Source: Streptomyces endophytica
GTDB lineage: Bacteria > Actinomycetota > Actinomycetes > Streptomycetales > Streptomycetaceae
NCBI RefSeq assembly: GCF_026153355.1
Contig: NZ_CP110636.1
Coordinates: 682,001 to 746,000 of the forward strand
Length of the DNA stretch: 64,000 nucleotides
Direction: 5' to 3'
Shown: positions 91 to 18,243 of the stretch, piece by piece
How positions within the stretch are numbered: the first letter of the stretch is position 1
How the letters are laid out: every line of letters begins with the position of its first letter
Position numbers and translations under genes: made by a program
The notes under the pieces: generated by a model
Database searches by the model: none
What the model saw: only the letters and a program-made list of their open reading frames with translations
What the model was told of the DNA's origin: nothing

Positions 91-1247
91 GCCCCTGGCG
101 CCTGCGTTCCTGGCCGCTGCCGAAACGCCGGTGGTGGCGGACCCCCGTCCGTGAGCTGGGAAAACGGGTCTGGGAGGCGCTGCGCCCGCTGGACCCGTAC
201 CGCTCCGTCAAGGCCGCGCTCGGCGCACTGGTCAGCGTCTCGGTGATCATCACCACCCTGCTCGTGTTCGTCGCGATGCACTCGGCGACCGAGCTGCGGG
301 TGATCACGATCTTCTCGATCATCGCCTCGCTGCTGATCACCCAGTTCGTGGCGAACAGCCTGACCGCCCCGCTCGGCGAGATGACGGACGTCACCCGCGC
401 GATGGCGCACGGTGACTACACCCGCCGGGTGCGCGCGGACCGCCGCGACGAGTTCGGCGACCTGGCCGACGCCTTCAACCGGATGGCGGCCGACCTCGAA
501 GCGGTGGACACCCACCGCAAGGAGCTGGTGGCCAATGTCTCGCACGAGCTGCGCACGCCGATCGCCGCGCTGCGGGCCGTGCTGGAGAACGTCGTCGACG
601 GCGTCTGCGAGCCCGACCCCGAGACGATGCGGACCGCCCTGAAGCAGACCGAGCGGCTGGGCCGCCTGGTCGAGCACCTCCTCGACCTGTCGCGGCTGGA
701 CAACGGCGTGGTGCCGCTGCACACCCGGCGCTTCGAGGTCTGGCCGTATCTGTCCGGGGTGCTCAAGGAGGCCAACATGAGCCGCGGCGCCTCCACCCTC
801 TCCGGGGTGACCGGCTCCGGCACCCACACCCGTACGGACGTCCATCTGCACCTCGACGTCTCGCCGCCGGAGCTGACCGCGTACGCGGACGCGGAGCGGC
901 TGCACCAGGTCGTGGCGAATCTCATCGACAACGCGATCAAGCACAGTCCCCGGCACGGCCGGGTCACCGTGCGTGCCCGGCGCGGCGAGAGCCCGGGGGG
1001 CCTGGAGCTGGAGGTGCAGGACGAGGGCCCCGGCATCCCGGAGTCGGAGCGCTACCGGGTCTTCGAGCGCTTCAACCGCGGCGGTCCCGGCCCCTCGGGC
1101 CCGGGGACGGACGGCGGTACGGGCCTGGGCCTGGCGATCGCCCGCTGGGCGGTGGACCTGCACGGCGGCCGGATCGGCGTGGCCGAATCGGCACGGGGTT
1201 GCCGAATCCGGGTCACTCTTCCGGGGCAGGAGTCATCACGGAGCTGA
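87..1247 (+). CDS. Sensor histidine kinase (HAMP, HisKA, HATPase)
   Basis: This 386-residue membrane kinase is expected to autophosphorylate and pass phosphate to the regulator encoded just upstream. Two hydrophobic segments lie near residues 44-65 and 68-90 with almost nothing between them, so there is little extracellular sensor. A HAMP linker follows ([20 protein letters not shown]). The HisKA motif SHELRTP gives phospho-His 153, and the ATP-binding domain shows [18 protein letters not shown] and GTGLGLAIA. The start overlaps the regulator stop as ATGA. The pair precedes kgd, as in other streptomycetes, but a link to the TCA cycle is not shown. Confidence 0.95.
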
Positions 1248-1497
1248 CGACCGTACGGACGGTCGCTGGCGTAGGGTCGGTGGTAGGAGCACTCACCCCG
1301 TGGGTGCGACGCCGGTGAGTGCTACCCGCACGCGGGCAAACTTCGTGTGTTTCCCGCCAAGTCATGCCCTGAAACCCTTCGGTGAATGTGACGTGCGCGA
1401 CGAGTGGCCCTCCCGGACTGCACCAAAGGTCACAAGAGGCGTAGCCTTTATTCCCGCTGTCCACCACCTTAGGAAGCGGAAGAGGGCGGTTGCCGCC

Positions 1498-4400
1498 GTG
1501 TCGCTACAGTCCCCCAACACTTCGAGCATCTCTAACGAGGCCGATCAAGCGGGGCAGGGCAAGAGCCCTGCTGCTGCCTTCGGCCCCAATGAGTGGCTCG
1601 TCGATGAGATCTACCAGCAGTACCTCCAGGACCCGAACTCGGTAGACCGAGCCTGGTGGGACTTCTTCGCCGACTACAAGCCGGGCGGCGCCACCGCGCC
1701 GAGCACGCCGGCGGAGGCCCCCGCCCCCGCCGGGGCCGCCCCGGCCCAGTCGTCCCCCGCGGCCCCGGCCGCGGACGGGCCGAAGCCCGCCGCCGCGCCG
1801 GCCACCCCGGCCGCGAGCGCCCCGGCCCCCGCCAAGCCCGCGCCGGCCAAGGCCGCCGAGGCCAAGGCCGCCGCCGCGAAGCCCGCGCCGAAGCCGTCCG
1901 GTGCAAGCACCGGCTCCACCGGAGCGGCTGGCGCCGCGCGCACTGTGGCGGCCGACGGCGAGGCCCCGGCCGCCGGTCCCGAGTTCGTCACCCTGCGCGG
2001 CCCGTCGGCCGCCGTTGCGAAGAACATGAACGCCTCCCTGGAGCTGCCGACGGCCACGTCCGTCCGCGCGGTCCCGGTGAAGCTGCTCTTCGACAACCGC
2101 ATCGTCATCAACAACCACCTCAAGCGCGCCCGGGGCGGGAAGGTCTCCTTCACCCACCTCATCGGGTACGCGATGGTGCAGGCCCTCAAGGCCATGCCGT
2201 CGATGAACTACTCCTTCGCGCAGAAGGACGGCAAGCCGACCCTGGTCAAGCCCGAGCACGTCAACCTCGGCCTGGCCATCGACCTGGTGAAGCCGAACGG
2301 CGAGCGCCAGCTGGTCGTCGCCGCCATCAAGAAGGCCGAGACGCTCTCGTTCTTCGAGTTCTGGCAGGCCTACGAGGACATCGTCCGCCGGGCCCGGGAC
2401 AACAAGCTGACGATGGACGACTTCACCGGAGTCACCGCGTCGCTGACCAACCCCGGCGGCATCGGTACGGTCCACTCCGTGCCGCGCCTGATGCCCGGCC
2501 AGTCGATGATCATGGGCGTCGGCGCGATGGACTACCCCGCCGAGTTCCAGGGCACCTCGCAGGACGCCCTGAACAAGATGGGCATCTCCAAGGTCATGAC
2601 GCTGACCAGCACCTATGACCACCGCGTGATCCAGGGCGCCGCCTCCGGCGAGTTCCTGCGCATCATGAGCCAGCTGCTGCTCGGCGAGAACGACTTCTAC
2701 GACGAGATCTTCAAGTCGCTGCGGATCCCGTACGAGCCGATCCGCTGGATGCGCGACATCGACGCGTCGCACGACGACGACGTCACCAAGGCCGCACGGG
2801 TCTTCGAGCTGATCCACTCCTACCGGGTCCGCGGCCACGTCATGGCCGACACCGACCCGCTGGAGTACCACCAGCGCAAGCACCCCGACCTGGACATCAC
2901 CGAGCACGGCCTCACCCTGTGGGACCTGGAGCGGGAGTTCGCGGTCGGCGGCTTCTCCGGCAAGTCCATGATGAAGCTGCGCGACATCCTGGGCGTGCTG
3001 CGCGACTCGTACTGCCGCACCACCGGCATCGAGTTCATGCACATCCAGGACCCCAAGCAGCGCAAGTGGATCCAGGACCGGGTCGAGCGTCAGCACAAGT
3101 CGCCCGAGCGCGAGGAGCAGCTGCGCATCCTGCGCCGGCTGAACTCCGCCGAGGCGTTCGAGACGTTCCTGCAGACCAAGTACGTCGGCCAGAAGCGCTT
3201 CTCGCTGGAGGGCGGCGAGTCCGTCATCCCGCTGCTGGACGCGGTCATCGACTCCGCGGCCGAGTCGCGGCTGGACGAGGTCGTCATCGGCATGGCCCAC
3301 CGCGGCCGCCTCAACGTCCTCGCCAACATCGTCGGCAAGTCCTACGCGCAGATCTTCCGCGAGTTCGAGGGCAACCTCGACCCGAAGTCGATGCACGGCT
3401 CCGGCGACGTGAAGTACCACCTGGGCGCCGAGGGCACCTTCACCGGCCTGGACGGCGAGCAGATCAAGGTCTCGCTGACCGCCAACCCCTCCCACCTGGA
3501 GGCCGTGGACCCGGTCGTCGAGGGTGTCGCGCGCGCCAAGCAGGACATCATCAACAAGGGCGGCACGGACTTCACCGTCCTGCCGATCCAGCTGCACGGT
3601 GACGCGGCGTTCGCCGGCCAGGGCGTGGTCGCCGAGACGCTGAACATGTCGCAGCTGCGCGGCTACCGCACCGGCGGCACGGTGCACGTCGTCATCAACA
3701 ACCAGGTCGGCTTCACCGCCGCCCCGGAGTCGTCGCGCTCCTCCATGTACGCCACCGACGTGGCCCGCATGATCGAGGCGCCGATCTTCCACGTGAACGG
3801 TGACGACCCCGAGGCCGTCGTCCGCGTCGCCCGTCTGGCCTTCGAGTTCCGCCAGGCGTTCAACAAGGACGTGGTCATCGACCTCATCTGCTACCGCCGC
3901 CGCGGCCACAACGAGTCGGACAACCCGGCCTTCACCCAGCCGCTGATGTACGACCTGATCGACAAGAAGCGCTCGGTGCGCAAGCTCTACACCGAGTCGC
4001 TGATCGGCCGTGGCGACATCACCCTCGAAGAGGCGGAGCAGGCGCTCCAGGACTTCCAGGGACAGCTGGAGAAGGTCTTCACCGAGGTCCGCGACGCCAC
4101 GACGGCTCCGGCCGCCCCCGAGGTGCCGCAGCCCAAGGCGGAGTTCCCGGTCTTCGTCGACACCGCGATCTCCCAGGAGGTCGTCAAGCGGATCGCCGAG
4201 TCGCAGGTCAACATCCCCGAGCACATCACCGTGCACCCGCGTCTGCTGCCCCAGCTGCAGCGCCGCGCGGCCCAGGTCGAGGACAACGCGATCGACTGGG
4301 GCATGGGCGAGACCCTCGCCGTCGGTTCGCTGCTGATGGAGGGCACCCCGGTCCGGCTCGCCGGCCAGGACTCCCGCCGCGGCACGTTCGGCCAGCGGCA

Positions 4401-5340
4401 CGCGGTGCTCATCGACCGCGAGACCGGCGAGGACTACACCCCGCTGCTCTACCTCTCCGAGGACCAGGCCCGCTTCAACGTCTACGACTCGCTGCTGAGC
4501 GAGTACGCGGCGATGGGCTTCGAGTACGGCTACTCGCTGGCCCGCCCCGAGGCGCTGGTCATGTGGGAGGCCCAGTTCGGTGACTTCGTCAACGGCGCGC
4601 AGACCGTCGTCGACGAGTTCATCTCCTCGGCCGAGCAGAAGTGGGGCCAGACCTCCGGCGTCACCCTCCTCCTGCCGCACGGCTACGAGGGCCAGGGCCC
4701 GGACCACTCCTCGGCCCGGATCGAGCGGTTCCTGCAGCTCTGCGCGCAGAACAACATGACCGTGGCGATGCCGACGCTGCCCTCCAACTACTTCCACCTG
4801 CTGCGCTGGCAGGTGCACAACCCGCACCACAAGCCGCTCATCGTCTTCACCCCGAAGTCGATGCTGCGTCTGAAGGCCGCGGCGTCGAAGACGGAGGAGT
4901 TCACCTCGGGCGGCTTCCGTCCGGTGATCGGCGACTCCACGGTCAAGCCCGAGAACGTCCGCAAGGTCGTCTTCTGCTCCGGCAAGGTCTACTACGACCT
5001 GGACGCCGAGCGGCAGAAGCGGGGCGCGGACGACACCGCGATCGTCCGCATCGAGCGGCTCTACCCGCTGCCCGGCAAGGAGCTCCAGGCGGAGATCGCC
5101 AAGTTCCCGAACGCCGAGAAGTACCTGTGGGCGCAGGAAGAGCCGGCGAACCAGGGTGCCTGGCCGTTCCTCGGCCTCAACCTGATCGACCACCTCGACC
5201 TGGCGGTCGGTGCCGACGTCCCGCACGGCGAGCGGCTGCGGCGCATCTCGCGCCCGCACTCCTCGTCCCCGGCCGTCGGCTCCGCCAAGCGCCACCAGGC
5301 CGAGCAGGCCCAGCTGGTCGCGGAGGTCTTCGACGCGTAG
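1498..5340 (+). CDS. kgd: Multifunctional 2-oxoglutarate dehydrogenase / 2-oxoglutarate decarboxylase (Kgd, E1o fused to E2-type domain)
   Basis: The 1,280-residue product catalyses 2-oxoglutarate decarboxylation and succinyl transfer in the TCA cycle. The N-terminus has the E1o leader ([19 protein letters not shown]), then an Ala/Pro/Lys-rich linker at about residues 62-150. An acyltransferase-like domain follows with the catalytic motif [13 protein letters not shown] near residue 375. The rest is the thiamine-diphosphate E1 part ([33 protein letters not shown]). This fused layout is typical of actinobacteria. I chose the GTG at 1498 because the family leader starts there; longer in-frame starts upstream add unrelated sequence. 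It stands alone and ends in a strong terminator. Confidence 0.96.
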
Positions 5341-5364
5341 GCGTCACCGGACCGACAGGCAGCA

Positions 5365-5402
5365 GCGGAAGGGCCCGTCCCCTCGGGGGCGGGCCCTTCC
5401 GC
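5365..5402 (+). terminator. Hairpin terminator of kgd
   Basis: A perfect 13-bp stem (GCGGAAGGGCCCG with its complement at 5390-5402) encloses a 12-base loop, 24 bases after the kgd stop. It lies between convergent genes and probably serves both strands. No T-run follows, as is usual in Streptomyces. Confidence 0.85.
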
Positions 5403-5411
5403 CTGCTCCGG

Positions 5412-8400
5412 TCAGACGGGCTGGGGCTCGAAGTCCCAGTACGGCCGGCGCCGGCGCCGGGCCGAGACGGTGTGGGGGTGTTCGGCGCCCAGGGTCTCGA
5501 TGAGCTGCTGGACGGCCTCCTGCTCCAGTTTCGCGGCGTCCCTGGCGCGGCGCAGGGCCCGCAGGTCGTCGGCGAGCGCGGTCTTGGCGGACAGGGTCAG
5601 CGGATGGGTGTCGCCGAGCACTTCCGTGGCCCGCCGCACGATGTCCTGGCCGAGCTCGACGGCGCCTTCCTCGTCGTCGGCGCGGTTGCGGGCCGCGGCC
5701 GCGTTCAGGGCGCATCCCAGGGTCCAGGGGTGGTCCGGGCCCACCGCCGCGGTCATCCCGGCGAGCGCTTCCGCCGCGAGGGCCAGGGCCTGGGCGTGCT
5801 CGCCGAATTCCGACCGGACGAGCCCGACGTTGCCCAGCGTGCCCAGGGCGTACGGGTGCTGGCCCCGACCAGGGCGCGGTAGCGTTCGGCCACCTCCTCG
5901 GCCAGGTCCCGGGCCCGTCCGAGGTCGCCGTGTTCGCGCAGGAACGTGGCGTGATCGGCCATCATCATGAGGGTGTCCGGGTGCCGTGCGCCCAGGACCC
6001 GCTTGCTGCGTTCGACCACGTCCGGCAGCAGTGCCTCGGCCTGCGCGGTCTCGCCCATACGGCGCATGCACAGGGCGAGGTTGTGCTCGGCCCGGAGGCT
6101 CTGCGGGGTGTGGCGTCCCATGACCTGGCGGTGCAGCCGGGCGTTCAGCTCCTGGCGGGAGAGGGCGTCGCGGTACCGTCCGGTCAGCCGCAGCATCCGG
6201 GCGTAGAGGGTGCCGGTGCCGAGCGTGAGGTGGTGGCGGGCGCGCAGCTCGCGCTCGCGGATCGTGACCACCTCGCGGAGCAGGACCAGCGCCTTCTCGT
6301 AGCGCCCGAGCAGGCCCAGGGCGATGGCGAGGTTGTTGCGGGAGGCGACCGCGCGCGGTGCTTCCGGGCCGAGCAACTCGGTGTACCGGCCGGCGACCTC
6401 CTCGAAGAGGGCGCAGGCCCGTTCGTAGGCGCCGAGGGTCATCAGCGTGCCGGCCAGGCCGTCCTTGGCCCGCAGCAGATCGGCATCGGCCTCGCCGCGT
6501 TCGGTCTCCAGCTCGTCCACGATCGCGCTGCCGACCGCCTCCGCCTCGCGGTACCGGCCCAGCCGGCGCAGCATGTTGGCGTGCTGGTGGGTCAGCACGA
6601 GCATGGTGCGGTGGGTGGGCGCGAGCCGGTTCTTCCAGCGGAACATGAACTGTTCGCACAGCCGCAGGCCCATGCGGTACTCGCCGCGCACCCGGAGGTA
6701 TTCGACGCAGTTGATGACCAGGCCCTGGACCGCGGGTTCGGCGCTGTCCAGCGCGCCGGCCGGCTCCAGGTGCGGGATGAGCTCGGCGTAGCGGTCCCAC
6801 TCGCGGGTGTCGAACGGGTTCTGGGGATCGGCCGAGACCAGCACCCGGCAGGCCGTCGCGGACAGCTTGTCGCGTTCGTCCTCGGACATGTCGCTGCGCA
6901 GGAAGCGGTGGTAGAGCCGGTGCATCTGCGCGGTTTCGACGGCCGGGTCGGAGTCCTGGGAGTTCTGGTAGTCGAGGCGTACCGCGGTGGACTCGGTCAG
7001 CCGGCGGAGCGCGGTGTTCCAGCTGATCGGTTCGGCGGCGAGATCGGCCAGGTGCTCGGGCAGGTCGCCGCGGCGGGCCTTGGCCAGTTTGGGCACCGGG
7101 ATGGCGTCCGGCGCGAAGAAGGCGAACAGTTTGAGGAGTTCGACCGCGGCCGGGCTGCGTTCCCGGAGGGTGTTGAGGGTTATGGCCCAACTGGTCTGGA
7201 AGGCCATCGGGTAGTCGGTGGAGATGCGGATCCCGACGAGACTGGGCTCGCCCCGCCGGATCAGTTCGATGTACTCCCTGGGCGGCATCGGGTTGGCGTC
7301 CAGCCAGGCCGCGGTCTGCGCCAGCAGCAGGGGCAGGTCCTGCACCGCGTCCGCCAGGTCGTCGGCGTCCCTGGGCGTCAGCCGCGGGGCGCGGCGCCGG
7401 GCGTAGGCGACGCTCTCGACCCGGGTGAAGGGCAGCACCTCGATCTCCTGGGCGCTGCCGGAGCCGGACCAGTCACGGGTGAGCGTGGTGATCAGGACAT
7501 GGCCCCGGCCGTCCGGGACGAGGTCCTCGATCTGCTCCATGTCGTCGGCGCTGTCGAAGATCAGCAGCCAGCGGCGGTAGGGGCGTCCGGTGCGCAGTGC
7601 CTCGTGCACCGCCCTGATCCGGTCGCCGATCTCCTGGCCGACCGGCAGGCCGAGCCGGGAGGCCAGCTCGGCGAGCTGCTCGCGCGCCGCGCCGCGGTGG
7701 GTGGCGCTGATCCACCACACCACGTCGTAGTCGTTGCCGAACCGGTGCGCGTACTCGGCCGCGATCTGGCTCTTGCCGACGCCGGAGATGCCGTACAGCG
7801 CGATCCGGGTCTCCTGCGGCGGGTCGGAACCGGCGGCTCCGGAGCCGGCCAGCCTGTTGTGGAGTTCTTCGAGGACGTTGTCCCGGCCGGTGAAGCGGTT
7901 GTTGCGGCGGGGAATGTTCCAGACCTCGGGCGGGTCGTTCGGGAAGCGCGGTGCTCCGGGGCCCGGCTCGTGCCCCGGCGGGAGCGTGGCGGTGACGCCG
8001 AGCCGGTTCAGTACCCGGCGGTTGGCCTCGCGGGCGTCGAGGTCCCGGAGGTCGGCGGGCCGCAGCAGGGAGGCCGTGGCGGGCAGGCTCTGGGTCGCGA
8101 CGCTCACCGCCGCGAACCGGTCGGCGTGCGGCTGCACCACCTCGCGCAGTGCGGTGGTCCATTCGTCCTGGGTCTTGGGGCCCAGCCGGAAGTACCAGTC
8201 GTCCAGCACCATCAGGAGCCGGCCCTCGGCCTGCAGCAGGCCGGACAGTTCCTCGGCCAGCGCGGTGTCCGCCCGGGGGTCCCAGCGCAGCAGGGTCGTG
8301 CGGTAGTTCAGCTGCTCCAGCTGGTGCGAGAGCCAGGCGGCCCAGGGCCTGGCGAAGCCCGCATAACTGATCGTGACGTGGTCTGCGGAGCCGGCGGAAC

Positions 8401-8416
8401 CGGTCTGATCAGCCAT
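5412..8416 (-). CDS. TIR / NB-ARC / tetratricopeptide protein, FxsT-like (frame broken near 5864)
   Basis: Reconstructed length is about 1,001 residues. The N-terminus is TIR-like (VTISYAGFARPWAAWLSHQL). After it come an NB-ARC/STAND NTPase with P-loop GISGVGKSQ and WLLIFDSADD as Walker B, a winged-helix region, and a long TPR tail (repeated LG..HP.TL patterns). The order and the entry to the NTPase (VWNIPRRNNRFTGRD) match the TPR protein found with FxSxx-COOH peptide systems. It follows the radical SAM gene by 91 bases and has a good Shine-Dalgarno (AGGGAG). The reading frame breaks where GGGG on the minus strand should probably be GGGGG; sense resumes at HPYALGTLGN. Likely a signal-gated switch or abortive-response protein (inference). 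Confidence 0.85.
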
Positions 8417-8507
8417 GCGACCGTCTCCCTGCGATAAGCGGTGCGTCGAGCATGCGCGAGCTGGCTGGCACGATAACCCAAGTGTGCACCGATTCGCCGA
8501 CTGTGCG

Positions 8508-9683
8508 TCAGGTCATGTCGGCACGCCGCCAGTTGGGTGTCAGCGCGGCGTTCATCCGGCTTGCGACGTGGCGGATCAGCCGCTCCAGGTCGGCGCAGTA
8601 GACGGACGGGTTGCGGAAGCCGCTGTCGGCGTCGCGGTAGCGGTGGGCGTAGTTGCCGCCCCCGCAGACCGTCACCAGCGGGCAGGCCCGGCACTGCTCG
8701 CCGAGGCCGGCCAGGCCCTGTTGCCGGGCCGCCAGACCGGGGTGGGCGAGGGCCTGGTCGAAGCTGTGCCGGAAGACGTCCAGACCGGTGGCGGCGGCGC
8801 CGTCGTACGCGGACTTGAGCGAGTCCACCTGCTCGATGGCGCCGTCGGTGTCCACCACCAGGGCGACCACGGGCGACAGTCCGACCGCCTCGGTGGAGCT
8901 GGGCCGCCCCAGGAGCAGCCCGATGATCTCGGTGAAGAGCCGTATCCGGGGCCCGGGCGCCGGCTCGTCCCACCACAGGTCGAAGACCGTGCAGAGCCAG
9001 TCACCGTACGGTGTGGGGCCCGCGGGGCGGGGCGGCGGGGCCGGCGGGCTGGACCAGTTGGCGTGCGGCAGCAGGAAGTCGAGCATCGGCGGGGACAGGG
9101 CGCGAAGGCTCCGGTGGACCTGCCCGGGGTCGGTGGCGGGGTCGATGGTGCAGAGGATGCCGGCGAACGCGTCGGGCCGGGCGGCCAGCAGCCGGGCCGC
9201 ACGGGCGGCTGCGGGCCAGGAGGGCCGGCCCGCGTGGTCGACCCGGCGGTGGTTCAGCCCGGCGGTGCCGCCGTCCAGGCTGAGCCCGACCAGGAATCCC
9301 GCGTCGGCCAGGGTGTTCAGGCCGGCGGCGGTGAGGAGGGTGCCGTTGGTCTGGACACCGAAGCTCACCGCGCAGTACGCGGGCACCGCCGCGCGGATGG
9401 CCTGCGCCTGTTCCAGGAGCGGGCCCGGCCCGGTGAGCAGCGGCTCCCCACCGTGCAGATCGATGCGGATGTCGGGGAGGTGGTGGGCGCTGACGTGTTC
9501 GGCGATCCGGTGGGCGGTCTGGCGCACGGTGTCCGGCCGGACGGTCAGCGGCCGGCTCTGCCAGCTGCGGTCCGGACCGGTGTAGAGGTAGCAGTACGTG
9601 CAGGCCAGATTGCACCGGCTGTGCAGCTTGAGCACGAATTGCCGGAAGGGGGCCGCGGTGCCCCGGTCGGTTCTGCGCACCAC
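8508..9683 (-). CDS. FxsB-family radical SAM/SPASM peptide maturase, short form
   Basis: A 391-residue radical SAM enzyme with CNLACTYC giving the 4Fe-4S ligands Cys24, Cys28 and Cys31. The entry FRQFVLKLHSRC is typical of FxsB-type cyclophane-forming maturases. A C-terminal SPASM cluster region is seen as CRACPLVTVCGGGNY followed by a later Cys. Classical FxsB proteins carry a long extra C-terminal domain; this one stops after SPASM. Start: GTG at 9683 behind AGGGGG, just before the conserved region; GTG at 9680 is equally possible. It lies between the small peptide gene and the TIR-NB-ARC gene. Expected role (inference): to crosslink an aromatic side chain of the neighbouring peptide. Confidence 0.88.
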   Translation of the reverse strand: MVRRTDRGTAAPFRQFVLKLHSRCNLACTYCYLYTGPDRSWQSRPLTVRPDTVRQTAHRIAEHVSAHHLPDIRIDLHGGEPLLTGPGPLLEQAQAIRAAVPAYCAVSFGVQTNGTLLTAAGLNTLADAGFLVGLSLDGGTAGLNHRRVDHAGRPSWPAAARAARLLAARPDAFAGILCTIDPATDPGQVHRSLRALSPPMLDFLLPHANWSSPPAPPPRPAGPTPYGDWLCTVFDLWWDEPAPGPRIRLFTEIIGLLLGRPSSTEAVGLSPVVALVVDTDGAIEQVDSLKSAYDGAAATGLDVFRHSFDQALAHPGLAARQQGLAGLGEQCRACPLVTVCGGGNYAHRYRDADSGFRNPSVYCADLERLIRHVASRMNAALTPNWRRADMT

Positions 9684-9760
9684 GACGCCGCCCCCCTGCC
9701 TGGGTCGCGGTTCCCTGGACACCCGTCGACGCCCGCTGCTCCATGTCTGGCTCAGCCCGG

Positions 9761-9823
9761 AAAAAGCAATCAATTCCGATCGATAACTGGCTGAATTCTT
9801 TAACCTATTGCCCAGAATCAATC
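9761..9823. other. AT-rich island between peptide and maturase genes
   Basis: Only 23 of 63 bases are G or C, while the flanks exceed 70 percent. It covers the peptide stop and the gap before the maturase. It could hold a promoter for the maturase or a processing site, but no clear -35/-10 pair or hairpin was found. Confidence 0.5.
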
Positions 9824-10057
9824 GTTGCGGGGAGAGCGCCGCAGGCCCACATGGGAAGGGCCGTCGTCGTAATAGGCCACCGCCTCGTCCTCCGGCAGCC
9901 AATTGCGGAGCAGCAGGCCCGCCACTTCCCGGAGCACCGGATGGGACGTCAGCTCGGACAACGCACCCACATCGACCGCCGCGAAATCCGGCAGCGGCTC
10001 GGCCGACGGCCCGGGCGGGGCGGCCGCAGCCGGTTCGGTGCGGGGGGTGTTCGCCAC
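9818..10057 (-). CDS. FxsA-like radical SAM substrate peptide (candidate RiPP precursor)
   Basis: A 79-residue protein starting at GTG 10057 behind a strong Shine-Dalgarno (GAGGAG, 6 bases away). It has a Pro/Ala-rich N-terminus (1-23), then a helical leader-like block (FAAVDVGALSELTSHPVLREVAGLLL, here split: residues 25-50), then EDEAVAYYDD at 56-65. Family members end in the core as ...AVAAFNSxx, an F-x-S motif close to the C-terminus. Here the same place has Y62-Y63-D64-D65, followed by a 14-residue tail GPSHVGLRRSPRND. The aromatic-x-Asp pattern fits known three-residue cyclophane sites. It sits directly upstream of the radical SAM gene. Substrate status is inferred from position and pattern only. 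Confidence 0.75.
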   Translation of the reverse strand: MANTPRTEPAAAAPPGPSAEPLPDFAAVDVGALSELTSHPVLREVAGLLLRNWLPEDEAVAYYDDGPSHVGLRRSPRND

Positions 10058-10161
10058 GCTGCTCTCCTCTGGCCGGCTGGACGGGGGTGTTCCCGGACTC
10101 CTGTCCACGGAAACACGTGCGGGCGGCGGCGGCCGGGCGGCCGGCCGGGGGTGCCGGGGGC

Positions 10162-13100
10162 TCAGGCGGGGGATTCGAGGGCGCGCATGCGGGCGCGGGT
10201 GCGCTGCGCCTCGGGGCCGGGGTCGGCGGCGGTGCGCTGCCAGTGTTCCCAGCTCTCGCGGTAGGCCTGGAGCGCGGAGCGGGGGCCGGCGGTGACTTCG
10301 AGGACCTCGCCCCGGCGGTGGTGGGCGCGGGCGGCCAGCAGGGCGCTGCCGGCCCGGCCGGCGGCCTCGGCGGCGCGGCGGTAGCAGGCCGCGGCGCGGT
10401 CGTGGCGCTCGCGGGAGCCGAACCGGCGGTCCAGCAGCAGCTGCACGTCCCCGACCTCGATCCACGCCTCGGCACACACTACGTCCGGCACCCCGGCGCC
10501 CCGGGCGGCCAGTTCCAGGATCCAGTCGGCCTCGTGCAGATCGGCGACCGAGGGCCGGCGCTCGTGGCGCAGCCGCAGCGCCCGCCCGAACAGCAGCCGG
10601 TGACTGCCGAGATCGGGGTCCTGCGGCGCGACCCTGGCCAGCGCCTCGCGCAGGACGTGCACCGCCTCGTCGGCCAGCCGCCGGCCGGGCTCCTCGGCCG
10701 GCTCCTGGCGGGCCCGCAGCAGCAGCGCGGCACCCCGTTCGGCGAGCAGCGAGCTGTGCGCGGGGGTGTCCGGGGCGGTCAGCCGGAGCGCGGCGGCGAG
10801 CGCGTCGATCGCCGCGTCCAGGGCCGCGAGCGCGCCGGTACGGGTATGAACGGCGCGCTGGGCCGCGGCGATCCGGCGCAGGCTGTCGGCCTCCAGCGCC
10901 GCGTCGCCGAGGGACCGCGCGAGCGCCCGGGCCCGCTCCAGGGTGGGGAGCACCGACGGCAGCCCCGCGCCGCCGCCCAGCCGGCGGGCCGCCGCCAGGT
11001 CGAGCAGTGTCTCGCACACCAGGCGGTCGGCGTCGCCGCCGCGGCGGCGCAGCAGGACGGTGGCGGTGTCGAGGTCGTCGGCGGCGCGCACCGCGAGCAC
11101 CTCGGCGGGACGGGCCGCGCCGGGCGCTTCGGGCCGGCCGGCGGCGGCCCGGCGGGCCTGGTCGAGCAGCACCCCGCCGCGGGCGGCGTAGACCTCGCCG
11201 GGGACCTGCTCCCCGCTGGGCCAGTGGTCGAGGAGTGTGGTGAGGGAGCGCTCCGCCTCGTCGAGCGGGTCCGGGGGGAGCGGCTGTGCCGGGGGACCGT
11301 CCGGACCGGTGCTGCCGGCCGACGACGGGGTCGCGGCGGGCTCCGGGACGGCCGTCTCCGGCAGGGCGGCCAGCCGGCGCAGGACCTCGGTGCGCAGCAC
11401 CATGCTCTCCAGGACCCGGGGGTCGAGCAGGCTCATCAGCCCGCAGGCGGCGTCCAGTCGGCGGGCGGCCTCGGCGAGCGCGGTGCGCTCCCCGGCCGGG
11501 TCACCGGCGGCACGGCGCTCCCGGGCGCGGGCGTGGGCGACCCGGCCGAGCACGATCAGCACCCGGGTCCGCTCGGCCGCAGCGGCGTCGTCGCCCCCGG
11601 TGCCGTCCCGAGAGCCGTCGCCTTCCGCGGTGTCCGCGGGGGCCGCCGCCCCCAGGGCGCGTTCCGCCGCGCGCACCGCCCGTTCCGCCTCCTCCAGGGC
11701 GTCCGGCTGGCGCCATTCCGCCCAGGCGTGCAGCAGCGCCCGGGCGAGGTCCGTGCCGGCCGGCGGGAGGCGTTCCGCGGCGGCCCGCAGCAGCCGGACC
11801 GCCGCGATCAGGTCGCGGACGGCGCGGTCCTGTTCGTAGCGCTCCAGGAGGGCGGCGCCGTCCGCCGCCGGTCCGTCGGAGGCGTACGGCCGCCGGTCGG
11901 GCGGGCGCAGCGCCGGTTCGAAGCGGCGCAGGACGCGTTCGGAGACCCGGGCGAACGGTTCGGGCACCGCCCGCTGTCCGGTCTCCGGCTCCCGGCCGCT
12001 GCCGGAGAGCATGGCCACCGCGACCGCCGGAAAATTGCGCGCGCTGCGGCCGAAGGTGCGCTCGATGTAGAGCGAGCAGTGCTTGAGCACCAGCGCAGCC
12101 TCACCCGCGCTCAGCCGGGCGAGCAGTGCGTCCCGTACACCGGGCACGAAGTCGTACCAGGGGCCGGTCGCCGCGAGCCGCTCCTCCGGGAGGCCGGCGC
12201 CCGGGCTGCGCTCCCCCGGCGGGAAGTCCTCCGGCGGCACCTGCACGACCAGTCCGCTCAGCAGCACCTCGGCCAGCTCGGCCGGCCCGGTCTGGGGCAG
12301 CATCGCGCGCTGGACGAGCTGGATGACGGGCAGCGCGAGCGGCACGGCGGAGAGGTGCACCGCGAGCAGCCGGGCGGCCGGCGACGCCTGCTGGTCGAAC
12401 TCCCGGACCATCCGGGAGGGTTCGCCGCTCCCGGGCGCGGGCGGCGGCCCGGAGCGCGGTTCGGCGCCGTGGTCGGCGCGGACGACGGAGGCCGCGCCGC
12501 GCAGCGAGAGACCGGGCTCCGCGGCGGCCAGCCGGGCCCAGGAGCCCAGCGCGGACGGGGTGGCGGCGAGCACCGGGACGGCCCGCTCGCGCGGCGGCTC
12601 GGTCTCCGTGCCCGGTGGCGGAGCGGGCCGGCGACGGCGCCGGGCGGGCCGGAAGTCGAGGGCTTGGTACGGGCCCTGGCGCCGGACCAGGGTGCCGGCG
12701 ACGGCGGGCAGCAGCGTCCGCCCCCACATCCGCTGCGGCAGCGGCTGGACCACGGCGAGCGGGGCGTCGGCCGCCCAGCGGTAGAGCAGCCGCTGCATCC
12801 GGCCGTCGCGCCAGAGGGGGCCGGCGCAGTCGCTGACGACGAGGGTGAGGTGGTGGCCCGTCGGGTCGTGCAGCTGGTCGGCGGGGCGCAGCGGACGGCC
12901 GGGGCCGGGGTCGCGGCGACGCCGACGTCCGCGCCGTGCGGATGGAGGTAGTGGACCGTGACGTCCCGGAAGGCGCCCACCCGCTCGCAGACCTGGCGCA
13001 GGTCGTGCAGCATCTGCTCCCATACGGCCATCGAGGACGAGCCGTCCATCAGCAGCCGGAGCCCGGCCGTGCGGCGGTGCACCCCGCGCAGTACCGGGAT

Positions 13101-13706
13101 GACCATCTCGGCGTGCGCGGAGAGTTCGGCGGTGGCCCGCTCGTCCAGCTTGCGGCGGACCGGCGCGGCCGGCGGGCGGTACCGCTGGACCGGCCGCAGG
13201 GCGCGCTGCAGCGGCAGGAGTCCGGGGAACGCGGAGGCGATCGGGACCGCGACCTCGCCGAGGCGGTGGTGGTCCGGGTCGGTGCCGTGCTCGTGCCGGG
13301 CGGGCAGCAGCTCCGCGACGCGGCGCCGGGCCGCCTCCCGGAGGGCGGCGGCGGACGCGGCCCCGTCGGCTGCCGGGTCCGGGGAGCCGTCGCCCTCGGA
13401 CGATGCTCCCTTCGCGCCCGTCAGACCCGGTGACGCGGGAGGACCCACCCGGAAAGTGGCCGGATCCGCACGGTCGGGACGGCCGTCGGCACGGGCCTCT
13501 CCGGCCCCGTCGGCGCCGTCGGCCCCTCCCGTCCCGCCGTCCCCGTCCGTCCCGTCGGCACGGGACGGATCCGGGGTGATCCACTGGGCGAGCCAGAGGG
13601 CGTCGGCCATGCCGCGGGCATCGGGCGGCAGTCCCGCCGCGGTCAGCCGGGCGACGAGCTCGTCGAGGGGACCTGGACCGGGCTCCCCGAGGGGCACCGC
13701 ACTCAC
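10162..13706 (-). CDS. SAV_2336-type von Willebrand A domain protein (frame broken near 12908)
   Basis: Reconstructed length is about 1,181 residues. The N-terminal block LVARLTAAGLPPDARGMADALWLAQW is the SAV_2336 N-terminal domain (shown in part: LVARLTAAGLPPDARGM). A low-complexity linker follows, then a vWA domain with a MIDAS-type DGSSS after LLM. A large helical C-terminal half with TPR-like Ala/Leu/Arg repeats completes it. It starts with GTGA overlap on the MoxR stop, the usual coupling of vWA and MoxR partners. Sense passes from HGADVGVAATP to GPGRPLRPADQ if one C is restored in the CCCC run (minus strand). In known conflict systems this protein links the MoxR ATPase to an effector. 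Confidence 0.85.
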
Positions 13707-14765
13707 CTCGTCCGATCGAGCGGCCGCATCAGCTCCGCCGTCAGTCGCCGCCGGGTCTCCTCCTCGTCCTGGTCCGTCCAGCCGGCCTTCTGGGTGAGGT
13801 GGATGGCGTTGAAGAGCTGGTCGACGGCGCGCACGTCACCGGGCTCGCGGTCCAGGAAGCGGTCGATCACGGATGCGTAGCGCTCGGCCGCGCCCTCGCC
13901 GAAGTGGGCCCGCACCATGGCGGCCAGCCGCTCCTTGTCGGGCGCCGGGATGTGGAGGTGGATGCAGCGGCGCAGCAGGGGCGCCGGGAAGTCGCGCTCC
14001 CCGTTGCTGGTGAGGACGATGAAGGGAAGGCGTGGCAGCGCACCCGGCCGCCGCGGACCGTCACCCGTGCACCGTCGTCGGTGAGCACCTCCACCTCGGG
14101 CGCGGATCCGGCCAGCCGCTCCAGCTCCGGAATCCGGAACTCCCCTTCCTCCAGGACGTTGAGGAGGTCGTTGGGCAGGTCGATGTCGCTCTTGTCGAGC
14201 TCGTCGACGAGCAGCACCCGGGGCCGGGCGGCCGGCAACAGGGCCGTGCCCAGCGGGCCGAGGCGGATGTAGCGGCCGATCCCGCCGCCCGGTTCGCCGG
14301 TGCCGTCCTCGTCGCCGGCCCTCCGGCGGCGCCGTCCGCGGCGGGCGACGGGGCGGCGCGGGCGATCTGGAGGTCCTGGAGCCGGCCGATGGCGTCGTAG
14401 TCGTACAGGCCGTCGCGGAGCGTGCTGCGGCTGACCACCGGCCAGCTGAGCACCCGGCCGAGGCCGAGTTCGTACGCGACCGAATGCGCGAGGGTGCTCT
14501 TGCCGCTGCCCGGGGCGCCGGTCACCAGCAGCGGCCGGCGCAGGTAGAGCGCGGCGTTGACCAGCTCGCGCTCGGTCTCGCCGGGGCGGTGGTGGCTGGC
14601 CTCGCGGTACTGCACGCCGAGCCTGCGCTCGGAGGCGGGGTCGAGTGCGGCCGGCGGCGCCACGAGGGGGCCGCCGTCGAAATCACGCCAAGGGGGTGGC
14701 GGCGGAAGGTGCTCAATGCCGTCGTGCGGTGCTCCCGCGCCACGGTAGATGAGCCAGTCGCTCAC
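13703..14765 (-). CDS. MoxR-type AAA+ ATPase (frame broken near 14024 and 14318)
   Basis: About 354 residues once two single-base losses are repaired. Walker A is GAPGSGKST, Walker B is [11 protein letters not shown], and the sensor region is [17 protein letters not shown]. This is a chaperone-like ATPase of the MoxR group and typically works with a vWA protein, here encoded next with a GTGA overlap. Break one is in the acidic/Gly linker after the pore-loop region; break two is in TTCCCTTC, where TTCCCCTTC restores [11 protein letters not shown]. Both are consistent with homopolymer undercalls. The start follows a 324-base gap, so it may have its own promoter. Confidence 0.85.
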
Positions 14766-15089
14766 GTCGGAACTCCTCGTCGCCGGACCGGGTCGGTACC
14801 TTCGGTCACGTCATCGCGCCCACCGCGCGGCGCGCCTCACGTCGTCCCGCTCACATCGTCACGCGCACGCACCCCGGCCACGCCGAACTGCCGTCCGCTG
14901 TCGGGTCGTTGCGCCACATCGTCCACGAACAAGTCTTCCACGAAGCTATGACAGTACCCATCCCTACGGAAGCGCACGGGGCGGTTTCCGGTCTCGCGGG
15001 TCGCGGGCGGGGCGCTGCGCGCCGGGCGGGGGCACGGAACCGGGGCACGGCATCAGCCGCCCGGCGCACGCGGTCGTGCGCTCCCCCGC
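14766..15089. other. Gap between trypsin-VMAP and MoxR genes
   Basis: This stretch holds no convincing gene on either strand; the open frames here are high-GC by-products. It is the only sizeable gap in the upstream part of the minus-strand island, so it may carry a promoter for the MoxR-vWA pair. No motif was recognised. Confidence 0.4.
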
Positions 15090-17270
15090 TCACCCCGGGG
15101 ACACCTGGGGCCGGTCCGGGAAGAGCGGGGGCAGCGGGTCCTCCGGGTCGTCGTAGAGGAGGATCAGGTCCCGGGCCCAGTGACTGCCCTCCTCCGCCGC
15201 CTCGGCGGCCTTGGCGCGCAGCTGCCGGACGAGTTCGGGGAGCCGGACCAGACCACCCGAGCCCTGGAGCAACTCCCGTACGCCGCGGTGGAATTCCTCG
15301 CAGCCGGCGTCGCACTCCCGGTCCTCGCCGTGGCCGCGGGCCGGCCACAGCCCGGCCGGGAAGCCGGTGTCCAGGGCCACCCCGACCGCGTCCCGGCCGA
15401 ACCCGTCGGCGACCGTCCGGCACAGTGCGGGCAGCGCCCCGTCCTCCGCCGTCTCCAACAGCCGCCAGATCGTTTCGGCGGAGCCACCGGGGCGCACGCC
15501 GGCGCCCGTGGGCGGGATCCGCAACGCCGTCAGCGCGGGGGCGGCGGTCATGCCCTGCCAGCGGCGCAGCCAGGCCGGATCGACCTCCTCGCGCCGGCCC
15601 TGGTCCCGCAGGACCACGGCACGGCCGGGACCCACCGGCCGCCGCCGGGCGGTGCGCCGGGTCGACGCGGCGACCTCCCACCGGCCGGCGGCGGTGTGCC
15701 AGCGCCCTTCGGGGACGGCGACCTCCAGGCGCACCCGGGCGCCCGGCCCGGCGTCCCCGTCGGCCCGCAGCAGCCGGCCGCCGAGCCCGCGCAGCACCTG
15801 CTCGCGCGCCTCCTCGAACGGCACCCCGCCGGCCGACTCCTGGACGTCCACCCGCAGCCACTGCCCCCGGCCGTAGCCCTCGCTGACCGACCAGTTGTAG
15901 AGCTCATGGCCGTTCTCGTCGTAGAAGAGCGGCTCGAACTCGACGAGGACGGAGCGCGGGCGGCGGCGCACCGGGCCGATCCGGCGGCGGTCCTGCGGCT
16001 GCAGGACGACCGCCTTGGCCTGGACGAACTCCGCGAGCCTGGCGGTCCCTTCGCGGACCGCGGCGGCCTCCTCGCCCGGTACGTCCCGCACCTCGTCGGC
16101 GGTCCGCTGGGCCACGATCCGCAGGTAGTGCACGAAGGCGCGCAGCTCCGTGTACGGGTCGCTGCCCTGATAGAGCGCGCCGTGCCCGTCCCGCCAGGTG
16201 CGCAGCGACCAGGCGCCGGGCCGTGCACCGCGCTCCAGCGCCTCGTCGACCGCCGCCTCGACGAGCAGCGGGTCGCGCGGTGCCGGCAGCCGGGCGAGCA
16301 GGTCCAGGGCCTGCAGCCGTTCCTGGACGCCCCAGAGGCGGCCGCGGCCCGCCATGACGGCGTGCTGGGCGTCGAACCAGGTGGGCCCGCCGGCCCGGGC
16401 GAGGTCCTGTCCGGTCCAGTGCCAGCGGTCGTGCAGCCCCATCAGCGCGTGGTACGGCTCGGGCCCGAGCCCTTCGGCGCCGGCCACCAGATGCTCCGGG
16501 CCCAGCCCGCGCAGCGCGGTGACCGGCACCGCGAGGCCGACGTGGTCCTGCTGGTGGCGGCCCTTGACGATGCCGACGACCTCGCCGCGGTCACAGTCGA
16601 TCAGCGGCCCGCCGGACGCCCCGGGGCTGACCCGGACATCGCTGCCGAACTGGAGCCCCCGGGCGTCCCGGGCACCGAAGCGGACGGCGATGAACGGGTC
16701 CACGGCGGCCGACGGGCCCGGCGCCCCGGCCGGCCCGCGCACCGCCGACTCACGTAGTACGCGTTTCCCGGCGGCGGGCCGCTCGGGTCCGTCCGGCCGG
16801 TCGCGGCCCCCCGGCACGTCCGGACCGTCCGCCCCGCCCGACCGGTCGTGCCCGCGGAAGATGTAGGCGTCCTCCAGGAGCGTCGCCGGCTGGTCGCTCA
16901 GCCAGGCGCACGGATGGTCGGCCTCCGGGTCGAGCAGCCGCACCAGGGCGAGATCGGCGCGGGCCGCGCCGGGGCCTGCCTCCGGGGCGGGCCGGCTCAG
17001 GTCGTACACCAGGCGCGCGGGCTCCACCCGGCCGCCGAACGCCACCCCGAAGACCCCCTCCGGACCGGTTTCGCGGCGCCGCCCGTCGCTCGCCGCGAGG
17101 ACGTGTGCGCAGGTCAGCACCCATCCAGGGGCGATCAGCACCCCGCTGCCCCACAGCCGGGCGTCGGCCGCGCCCGGCGCCGCGCGCAGGGCGACGGTGG
17201 TGCGGCCGGCGTGCTCCAGGAGCTGGGCGTACCGGGCGCGGTCACCGGTGCGTTGCTCGGCGGCCGCCAT
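15090..17270 (-). CDS. Trypsin-like serine protease fused to VMAP-type C-terminal domain
   Basis: A 726-residue protein. The N-terminal 270 residues are a chymotrypsin-fold protease with the triad His in LTCAHV, Asp in ADLALVRL and Ser in SPGASGGPL. There is no signal peptide, so it should act inside the cell. The middle and C-terminal parts resemble VMAP (vWA-MoxR-associated protein): they end with a long helix and LILLYDDPEDPLPPL, close to the LTLLWDDP ending of relatives. It overlaps the TCOD1 stop as ATGA. In the published MoxR-vWA-VMAP model such proteases are the activated effector or cascade step. Confidence 0.85.
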   Translation of the reverse strand: MAAAEQRTGDRARYAQLLEHAGRTTVALRAAPGAADARLWGSGVLIAPGWVLTCAHVLAASDGRRRETGPEGVFGVAFGGRVEPARLVYDLSRPAPEAGPGAARADLALVRLLDPEADHPCAWLSDQPATLLEDAYIFRGHDRSGGADGPDVPGGRDRPDGPERPAAGKRVLRESAVRGPAGAPGPSAAVDPFIAVRFGARDARGLQFGSDVRVSPGASGGPLIDCDRGEVVGIVKGRHQQDHVGLAVPVTALRGLGPEHLVAGAEGLGPEPYHALMGLHDRWHWTGQDLARAGGPTWFDAQHAVMAGRGRLWGVQERLQALDLLARLPAPRDPLLVEAAVDEALERGARPGAWSLRTWRDGHGALYQGSDPYTELRAFVHYLRIVAQRTADEVRDVPGEEAAAVREGTARLAEFVQAKAVVLQPQDRRRIGPVRRRPRSVLVEFEPLFYDENGHELYNWSVSEGYGRGQWLRVDVQESAGGVPFEEAREQVLRGLGGRLLRADGDAGPGARVRLEVAVPEGRWHTAAGRWEVAASTRRTARRRPVGPGRAVVLRDQGRREEVDPAWLRRWQGMTAAPALTALRIPPTGAGVRPGGSAETIWRLLETAEDGALPALCRTVADGFGRDAVGVALDTGFPAGLWPARGHGEDRECDAGCEEFHRGVRELLQGSGGLVRLPELVRQLRAKAAEAAEEGSHWARDLILLYDDPEDPLPPLFPDRPQVSPG

Positions 17271-17731
17271 CAGCGGCCCGCGTCATCGGGCTCCCGGCGG
17301 CCGGCCGGAGGTTCCGCCTGCGGTGCGCCCGCCGGCGCGCCCCCGTCGTGGTCCTGCCGGTCCCGGCCGTCCTGCCGGTCCTGCCGCCAGGTGAGGGTGA
17401 CGGAGAGGTTGGCCTTGGCCTCCCCGTCGGCGAGCAGGGCGATCGCCTTGCCCGGTTTCGCGGACAGTTCCACGCCGAAGGTCACGCTGGTCTCGTGCGG
17501 CGCGACCCGTGCGGTGGCCTGGCGGACGCTGGCGGCGACCCCGCCGATGACCTCGCGGAGCCCCTCGACCCGGGCGCCCAGCGCGTCCCAGGCGCCGACG
17601 TCCTCGAAGTCCCCGTCCTCGTCCCCGTGCAGGGGGTCCGTCCCGTCGAGCCCGGGGGCGTCCAGCCGGGAGACCCGGGCCCAGACCTCCGTCCCGTCGG
17701 GCAGTTCGATGCGCTGTGCGCGATCTTGCAT
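17270..17731 (-). CDS. TCOD1 / CU044_2847-family trypsin-co-occurring protein
   Basis: A 153-residue protein recognised by the opening IELPDGTEVWARVS and by the beta-strand pair VSFGVE-like (TSVTFGVELSAKPGKAIAL) followed by KANLSVTLTW. The family is found next to trypsin-like conflict-system proteases. Its stop overlaps the protease start (ATGA), so the two are translated together and probably interact. ATG 17731 sits 6 bases after GGAGG; a GTG at 17734 is adjacent. It is the first gene of the minus-strand island. Confidence 0.8.
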   Translation of the reverse strand: MQDRAQRIELPDGTEVWARVSRLDAPGLDGTDPLHGDEDGDFEDVGAWDALGARVEGLREVIGGVAASVRQATARVAPHETSVTFGVELSAKPGKAIALLADGEAKANLSVTLTWRQDRQDGRDRQDHDGGAPAGAPQAEPPAGRREPDDAGR

Positions 17732-17883
17732 CACGGCCTCCGCTCCCCCTGGACGGCAATTCCCCGATTGCCGCAGGACCGCTGACAGGTGATCAGGCTA
17801 GCCCCCGGGCGGCTGGGGCGCGAGAGGTCCGTGGGCCTGCCTATCCTGGCCGGGAATGACCCATGACCCCTGGTGGAGAGCGC

Positions 17884-18063
17884 GTGTATTTCACTGACCG
17901 TGGCATCGAGGAGCTGGAGAACCGGCGCGGCGAGGAGGAGGTCACCCTCGCGTGGGTGGCCGATCAGCTGCGCACGTTCGTCGACCTGAACCCGGACTTC
18001 GAGGTTCCGGTGGAGCGGCTGGCCACCTGGCTGGCGCGGCTGGACGACGAGGACGACGAGTAG
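17884..18063 (+). CDS. DUF6104 family small protein
   Basis: A 59-residue acidic protein beginning VYFTDRGIEELENRRGEEE and ending in a run of Asp/Glu. It matches a small protein widely conserved in streptomycetes with no known function. I start at GTG 17884 because the family begins at the YFTDRG block and GGTGGAG lies just upstream; an ATG at 17863 adds seven unrelated residues. It is divergent from the conflict island. Confidence 0.85.
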   Translation: MYFTDRGIEELENRRGEEEVTLAWVADQLRTFVDLNPDFEVPVERLATWLARLDDEDDE

Positions 18064-18243
18064 CGGACGAGCAGGAGGAGCGGCGAGGAGCAGCGGGGCG
18101 GGGGCGCCGTACGGCACGGGCACGACCGCCATGACCGTACGGCGCGAGGACGCCGAAGGGACGAAGAACCGGGTCGATGACCAGGGTCGAAGACCAGGGA
18201 TGACGTAGGGGGCGAGTAGGGGACGGGTCAGGGTCGGGGCCGC

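Follow-up and report, generated by a model that had tools for sequence, protein, structure and literature searches.

Gene content of the island

We analyzed a stretch of 64,000 nucleotides from Streptomyces endophytica (hereafter the window), which carries on its minus strand, from 5412 to 17734, a block of seven genes next to kgd. These encode a Trypco1 protein, a trypsin-like peptidase fused to VMAP-C, a MoxR-type AAA ATPase, an SAV_2336-type vWA protein, a peptide precursor, an FxsB-family radical S-adenosylmethionine (rSAM)/SPASM maturase and a TIR-like-NB-ARC-TPR protein of the kind known as signal transduction ATPases with numerous domains (STAND). Comparison with related loci showed that whole blocks replace each other at one chromosomal site, and we tentatively propose that the modified peptide acts as an intracellular ligand of the STAND protein. 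The genes of the block and its neighbor are as follows:

17270..17734, minus strand: Trypco1 (trypsin-co-occurring domain 1; CU044_2847 family); PF19493 67.8 bits, NF041216 68.1 bits
15090..17270, minus strand: trypsin-like peptidase fused to VMAP-C; PF13365 60.2 bits, PF20028 128.5 bits
13703..14765, minus strand: MoxR-type AAA ATPase; three reading frames in this assembly
10162..13706, minus strand: SAV_2336-type vWA protein with a long C-terminal region; NF041121 128.9 and 260.3 bits (two pieces); two frames
9818..10057, minus strand: YxD-tail cyclophane peptide precursor, 79 amino acids; NF041709 79.2 bits, cut-off 55
8508..9683, minus strand: FxsB-family radical SAM/SPASM peptide maturase; TIGR04269 431 bits, cut-off 370
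5412..8416, minus strand: TIR-like-NB-ARC-TPR protein (FxSxx_TPR family); NF040586 725 and 127 bits, TIR_2 60 bits, NB-ARC 29.9 bits; two frames
973..5340, plus strand: kgd, multifunctional 2-oxoglutarate decarboxylase/dehydrogenase; NF008907 2114.7 bits, cut-off 878; convergent neighbor outside the block

An earlier note on this DNA had listed the seven minus-strand genes in this order, and the profile matches over 5412-17734 bear out both their presence and their order; the MoxR, vWA and TIR-NB-ARC-TPR genes are, however, each broken up over more than one frame in the window. The gaps of 104, 134 and 91 bases that it gave agree with the open reading frame (ORF) coordinates, with starts at 10057, 9683 and 8416, as does the 4-base overlap of the MoxR and vWA genes (GTGA), while the overlap of Trypco1 with the protease gene, also put at 4 bases, is actually 1 base (TGATG). 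The spacing between the VMAP and MoxR genes is at least 279 bases; gaps between stop-to-stop frames are minimal values and do not fix the start sites. A promoter and terminator scan of 5300-18200, of a kind ill-suited to Streptomyces, returned 0 and 0 hits (0.1 and 1.3 in shuffled sequence), and Rfam gave 0 matches over window positions 1-24000.

Within the protease arm, the AAA gene is only weakly matched by profiles in the window pieces, and its intact copy in Streptomyces nigrescens HEK616 matches AAA_5 at 29.8 bits (cut-off 22). The vWA fold of the SAV_2336-type protein rests on NF041121 and on a DxSxS motif identified by eye at LLMDGSSSM, as Pfam returned no vWA match for this protein, nor any NB-ARC or TPR match. 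In the trypsin-like domain, the catalytic His, Asp and Ser are kept in at least 95% of 46 loci.

Precursor type and maturation enzymes

The precursor ends in YYDDGPSHVGLRRSPRND and passes the profile for YxD-tail cyclophane ribosomally synthesized and post-translationally modified peptides (RiPPs; NF041709) well above its cut-off. This match and the tail, which is not of the FxSxx kind, rule out the FxsA identity that had been suggested for the peptide. The CxxxCxxC motif of the maturase is invariant in 21 sequences, the window's included, and its predicted reaction is the closure of a Tyr-x-Asp ring in the precursor, as reviewed for YxdB (PMC11002830). No gene for an HExxH protein lies in the island: the rSAM and TIR genes are 91 bases apart, and no HExxH profile matched between window positions 1 and 30000.

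Of 245 genomes in the order, 79 match NF041709 at E ≤ 0.001 and 13 exceed the cut-off; in a phylum-wide draw, 11 of 296 genomes match, and the window's own precursor is the single one above it. Many of the weak matches are confined to the profile's leader half. From the 79 genomes, 40 loci had their precursors read. We then assembled 112 distinct loci with this rSAM gene from these first 40, from a census described below and from named loci (the best 76 distinct of 212 encoded relatives), with duplicates removed. Three diverged rSAM loci of the census in which no precursor was recognised (L164, L165 and L171) stand outside the 112.

The tail of the precursor and the presence of an HExxH gene are closely matched. 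Among the 43 precursors read at the first 40 loci, 24 are of a Tyr type and 19 of a Phe type, and an HExxH ORF precedes the TIR gene with all 19 Phe-type precursors and with none of the 24 Tyr-type ones. Across the 112 loci, with class limits drawn after the tails had been seen, HExxH occurs in 31/31 loci with FxS-like or other non-YxD tails and in 1/73 loci that are YxD-like by pattern, or 1/76 once three loci (L201, L227 and L231) are added, which lack HExxH and fall into the other class by pattern but have x-D tails by eye; in the remaining 5 loci no precursor was recognised close to the rSAM gene. The pattern takes YFEN and YFDN tails (L190, L216) as YxD-like, and two loci of the other class (L074, L085) carry Tyr rather than Phe. 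The single YxD-like locus with HExxH is L229, where the gene belongs to a second unit alongside. The HExxH gene of L054 matches TIGR04267, the aKG-HExxH-type peptide beta-hydroxylase; this family was taken for a metallopeptidase by Kaur et al. and was later assigned to beta-hydroxylation (PMC12636437).

Two further precursor forms were seen. Tails of the YF(S/A)D type occur in L227, L236 and L253, and the precursors of L227 and L236 show a clear repeat of the motif, as though each gave rise to two core peptides. Blocks with HExxH and without rSAM (L076, L080, L081, L091, L094, L100, L103, L108 and L109) carry a third precursor type with a leader like LPDLTGVDLRTLRxMDDP; eight such blocks adjoin kgd in the set used for the trees below.

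Conservation of the block as one unit

The earlier note had proposed that the peptide system and the MoxR-vWA-VMAP system, if their union is conserved, make up a composite system, and had taken joint occurrence in only one or a few genomes as a sign of chance proximity. In a census of 99 genomes, SAV_2336 proteins were present in 69, at 120 places (123 rows, of which 3 are second pieces of a gene already counted; a few of the places are at contig ends). An rSAM gene together with a separate TIR-NB-ARC gene was found at 28 of these places, 16 with and 12 without HExxH. Ten places have HExxH and a separate TIR-NB-ARC gene and no rSAM, 25 have NB-ARC fused to the vWA frame, one has only a distant rSAM, one only a separate NB-ARC, and 55 have none of these. 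For comparison, Kaur et al. put the share of actinobacterial VMAP systems with a peptide module at about 20% (PMC7159879). The order MoxR, vWA, precursor, rSAM, TIR, NB-ARC, TPR is kept in 89 of the 112 distinct loci; four loci with tandem or double units are arranged differently, and in 19 a part is missing, in some of them through truncation. TIR-NB-ARC accompanies the rSAM gene in 110 loci, both misses being cut-off stretches, compared to 101 for vWA. The STAND protein is thus the nearest constant partner of the peptide.

Divergence of the two arms was compared across the 57 YxD loci in which kgd and every part of the block are present. Distances in the protease arm (trypsin, VMAP, MoxR) and in the peptide arm (rSAM, TIR, NB-ARC, TPR) correlate with r = 0.95, compared to 0.65 and 0.61 for the correlation of the respective arms with kgd. 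The partial correlation given kgd is 0.92, which was reached in 0 of 999 permutations. Mean distances are 0.25-1.20 for the block parts and 0.12 for kgd.

Whole blocks are exchanged at the kgd site. Where a distinct rSAM locus had a vWA gene and room downstream, kgd lay within the fetched stretch in 83 cases and not in 15, and it is convergent with the block in 84/84 distinct rSAM loci where it was seen. We compared 47 kgd-side loci of Streptomycetaceae, namely 20 with rSAM and HExxH, 19 with rSAM only and 8 with HExxH only (labels F, Y and W). On each of six block-gene trees (trypsin, VMAP, MoxR, vWA, TIR-NB-ARC and TPR; 46 or 47 loci), the type label changes twice, the minimum, compared to 12 changes on the tree of kgd, the gene that stands in for the species tree. 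It follows that blocks are replaced as wholes at one site. Shuffled labels gave 14-25 changes overall and 15-24 on the kgd tree, so the observed 12 show that the label is clustered there too and that inheritance by descent also plays a part. Some forks of the kgd tree are weak, but even if only its starred branches are counted, the F, Y and W labels require 6, 7 and 5 changes, respectively.

In favor of two independent systems that came to lie side by side by chance, the peptide/rSAM/TIR-NB-ARC part has no vWA match in nine TIR-bearing loci of the 112, one of them cut off upstream. The census, the common order, the co-divergence of the arms and the six trees, on none of which types are mixed inside the block, contradict mere proximity as the explanation, and we leave it only a trace of probability. 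The two halves are one conserved unit, and their joint occurrence at 28 of 120 places is not the rarity that the note took as a sign of chance.

The loci that lack the vWA arm include tandem YxD-rSAM units (L041, L043, L209, L226 and L228) as well as L044 and L225, which form a class that has a separate TIR protein beside a bpMoxR-type ATPase. Two YxD-rSAM pairs flanking a TIR-NB-ARC gene, one on each side, were observed in L041, L043, L045, L199, L209, L226 and L228. A YxD peptide and rSAM without a vWA gene occur in L044, L047, L224, L225, L242 and L243; the three of these that were read (L044, L047 and L225) have a separate TIR protein, a MoxR-like ATPase (bpMoxR in L225) and a TIR-NB-ARC-TPR protein, and represent another type of ternary system that uses this peptide module. 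L225 additionally encodes a protein of about 325 amino acids without a Pfam match.

The TIR-like domain

In TIR domains that cleave NAD, the catalytic Glu is expected four residues after a conserved Trp. At this position (W+4), the TIR-like domain has Leu, Phe or Val in 118/118 proteins, four of them read by eye, and never Glu; both other TIR_2 matches of this genome have Glu there, as read by eye on the sequences. The missing Glu argues for a scaffold rather than an NADase, and killing by NAD cleavage through this domain, tried as a candidate output, is unlikely. In the PDB, the domain weakly matched a SEFIR domain (E 0.74), and its fold matched TIR domains; both results speak to fold only. 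With Glu at W+4 in 0/118, the island protein also differs from bacterial antiphage proteins of the NOD-like receptor (NLR)/STAND kind that carry TIR domains. The missing Glu points away from NAD loss and toward the protease as the executioner to look for, and where VMAP is present, the trypsin-like domain is the best candidate for the output.

Frame breaks in the window copy

In the window, the MoxR gene runs over three frames and the vWA and TIR-NB-ARC-TPR genes over two each. In Streptomyces nigrescens HEK616 (L178), the nearest named relative among those listed, at 98% DNA identity, the same genes are each one open frame, of 368, 1229 and 1011 codons, respectively. At 40 loci of other genomes, MoxR and the N- and C-terminal parts of vWA each lie in one ORF in 35/35 cases where both parts were found, and TIR and NB-ARC share one ORF in 40/40. 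A second SAV_2336 gene of the S. endophytica genome (G000:C1:486008-487260, L176) is also split in two, one piece having an in-frame stop, and the completeness of the assembly is rated at 82.6%.

A decaying cluster of pseudogenes would account for the frame changes in the three genes and for the lack in the window of about 660 bases that are present in HEK616 and hold a second YxD precursor. We consider decay improbable, since every gene is open in HEK616, the second SAV_2336 gene is broken as well, the assembly is incomplete, and the frames of the peptide, rSAM, protease and Trypco1 genes are open in the window itself. Sequencing indels are the likelier cause of the breaks.

The HEK616 stretch (L178:14316-14956) lies between the island and kgd and carries, besides the second precursor (NF041709, 67.9 bits), a remnant of a TPR end. 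It is absent from the window, with a junction near 5414/5439, and resembles the remains of a tandem unit.

Proposed function of the block

We tentatively favor the view, to which we give slightly less than an even chance, that one block is exchanged beside kgd in which the cyclised YxD peptide is the likely intracellular ligand of the TIR-like-NB-ARC-TPR protein, and in which this STAND protein would control a protease gated by MoxR and vWA. The peptide is taken as the ligand because the STAND protein is its constant partner; the Tyr-Asp cyclophane chemistry, the binding of the peptide by the TPR/NB-ARC protein and the order of signaling are the parts that we infer. In such a model, the rSAM enzyme would read the leader and close the Tyr-x-Asp ring in the tail, and the ring-bearing peptide would stay inside the cell, where it could arm or hold the STAND protein. 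A cue from infection or damage might then tip this protein into an oligomer, whose TIR-like platform, together with the vWA/MoxR pair, would free the trypsin-VMAP protease; the freed protease would cleave host or effector proteins and stop the hypha. In this reading, the block would probably serve as an internal alarm against invaders such as viruses. Activation of an immune partner by a trypsin-like protease has a precedent (PMC12799240), and it has been proposed that a vWA-bearing protein acts as a sensor that relays through MoxR to a VMAP effector as executor (PMC10907252). As far as that proposal goes, it matches a ligand and protease model better than the toxin or signal view of Kaur et al. 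If the peptide is a dedicated ligand of an NLR-like protein, its post-translational ring would amount to a key built into a bacterial immune receptor, and the presence of triceptide genes next to STAND proteins would be explained.

Several points weigh against this interpretation. Should the frame breaks in the three split genes be genuine, the window copy could be nonfunctional. The nine TIR-bearing loci without a vWA match imply that the protease cannot be the sole output. The W+4 reading is an argument from sequence that depends on an alignment, and a MAFFT alignment that joined the TIRs of the island to the genome's two other TIRs is visibly wrong in the helix region, so the position in those two was taken from their sequences by eye. 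Moreover, the class of L044 and L225 has a separate TIR protein in the locus, which bears the Glu in L044, so NAD chemistry may be supplied from elsewhere. The exchange of blocks, finally, was judged against kgd as the sole stand-in for the species tree, which is one gene.

The authors who described the coupled systems also favored something else, namely a released toxin or signal peptide (PMC7159879). Once cleaved off, the cyclophane peptide would work either as a toxin or as an alarm that spreads and boosts the core system. The conserved trypsin-like protease in the block would suit such a release, and an Arg lies between the HPxx motif of the leader and the tail motif in 66/66 parsable unique precursors without HExxH (18 of 84 were not parsable), which is a weak hint of a cleavage site. 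However, the sixth residue ahead of the protease's catalytic Ser is mostly R, D or E and varies between loci, which makes a common Arg specificity doubtful; cleavage at the conserved Arg to free the core is not supported by any one pocket residue shared among the loci. No transporter was recognised among the genes read, in which no systematic search for transporters was made, and the metallopeptidase that was to release the peptide belongs to the family now described as a beta-hydroxylase (PMC12636437; TIGR04267) and is absent from nearly all YxD-like loci. We therefore regard release as unlikely. A role in physiology rather than defense, with the block regulating development or central metabolism in mycelial growth and perhaps linked to kgd, appears to us about equally unlikely. 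It would fit the constant placement of the block, convergent with kgd, in 84 distinct loci. It would also fit the plasmid search with the TIR-NB-ARC piece, which at E ≤ 1e-60 gave 3 records, none above 60% identity, and the PADLOC search, in which no system was matched and similarity stayed at the level of domains (rSAM to pVip at 40 bits, ATPase to mad8 and IetA at 18-25 bits). Patchy presence (SAV_2336 in 69/99 genomes, the rSAM composite at 28/120 places), exchange of blocks between types and fast divergence of the block parts relative to kgd are, in contrast, conflict-like and not what is expected of a housekeeping function.

A bolder view, which we hold to be quite improbable, takes the kgd slot as a haplotype locus with three mutually exclusive peptide chemistries, each locked to its own NLR-like receptor and protease: a Tyr-x-Asp ring only, a Phe-type tail with hydroxylase, and hydroxylase only. 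Streptomyces would trade these among themselves as entire blocks. The ring peptide would be a self-ligand in an allorecognition or guard system with a dead-TIR platform, and the locus would be a mycelial-bacterial counterpart of fungal incompatibility based on NLRs. At the sixth residue ahead of the catalytic Ser, close relatives of the window mostly have R and the remaining YxD loci mostly D or E, and because of this variation the cleavage specificity of the trypsin-like domain may differ by haplotype. The natural swaps at the kgd slot are ready-made chimeras, with three peptide chemistries and three matching receptors at one site.

Comparison with known systems

The union of the two halves, which the earlier note took for a possible new composite system, is already in print. 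Kaur et al. (eLife 2020, PMC7159879) described MoxR-vWA-VMAP systems coupled to an FxSxx peptide, a radical SAM-SPASM enzyme and a separate TIR-AP-ATPase; in their account, VMAP-ternary systems with an attached peptide system also have an AP-ATPase with TPRs, which in the FxSxx case has an N-terminal TIR and is encoded by a separate downstream gene, the vWA protein of that subtype having TPRs and no AP-ATPase. The island shares with this arrangement MoxR, vWA, trypsin-VMAP with Trypco1, the rSAM-SPASM enzyme, the small precursor and the separate downstream TIR-AP-ATPase with TPRs. It differs in its tail, since the four tail types of Kaur et al. are FxSxx, RxD, acidic and FtsH-associated and 'YxD' has 0 matches in the main text of their article, and in lacking the HExxH enzyme, which they count in the core of the peptide system. 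In the open-licence literature, we did not find the YxD subtype in a VMAP setting, the partition of tails and HExxH, the Glu-less TIR or the exchange of blocks at kgd.

Compared to the FxsA/FxsB/FxsT set, the maturase (TIGR04269) and the TPR protein (NF040586) of the island are members above cut-off, but there is neither an FxSxx tail nor an HExxH beta-hydroxylase. The precursor passes the cut-off for YxD-tail cyclophane RiPPs (NF041709), and the maturase belongs to the cyclophane-forming FxsB family, next to the YxdB-type triceptide synthases (PMC11002830). That review treats YxD/YxdB as natural-product chemistry, whereas the pair in the island, with its predicted ring, sits within a STAND/protease block. 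Judged by its profile matches, the island is a YxD-peptide variant of the published VMAP-ternary kind.

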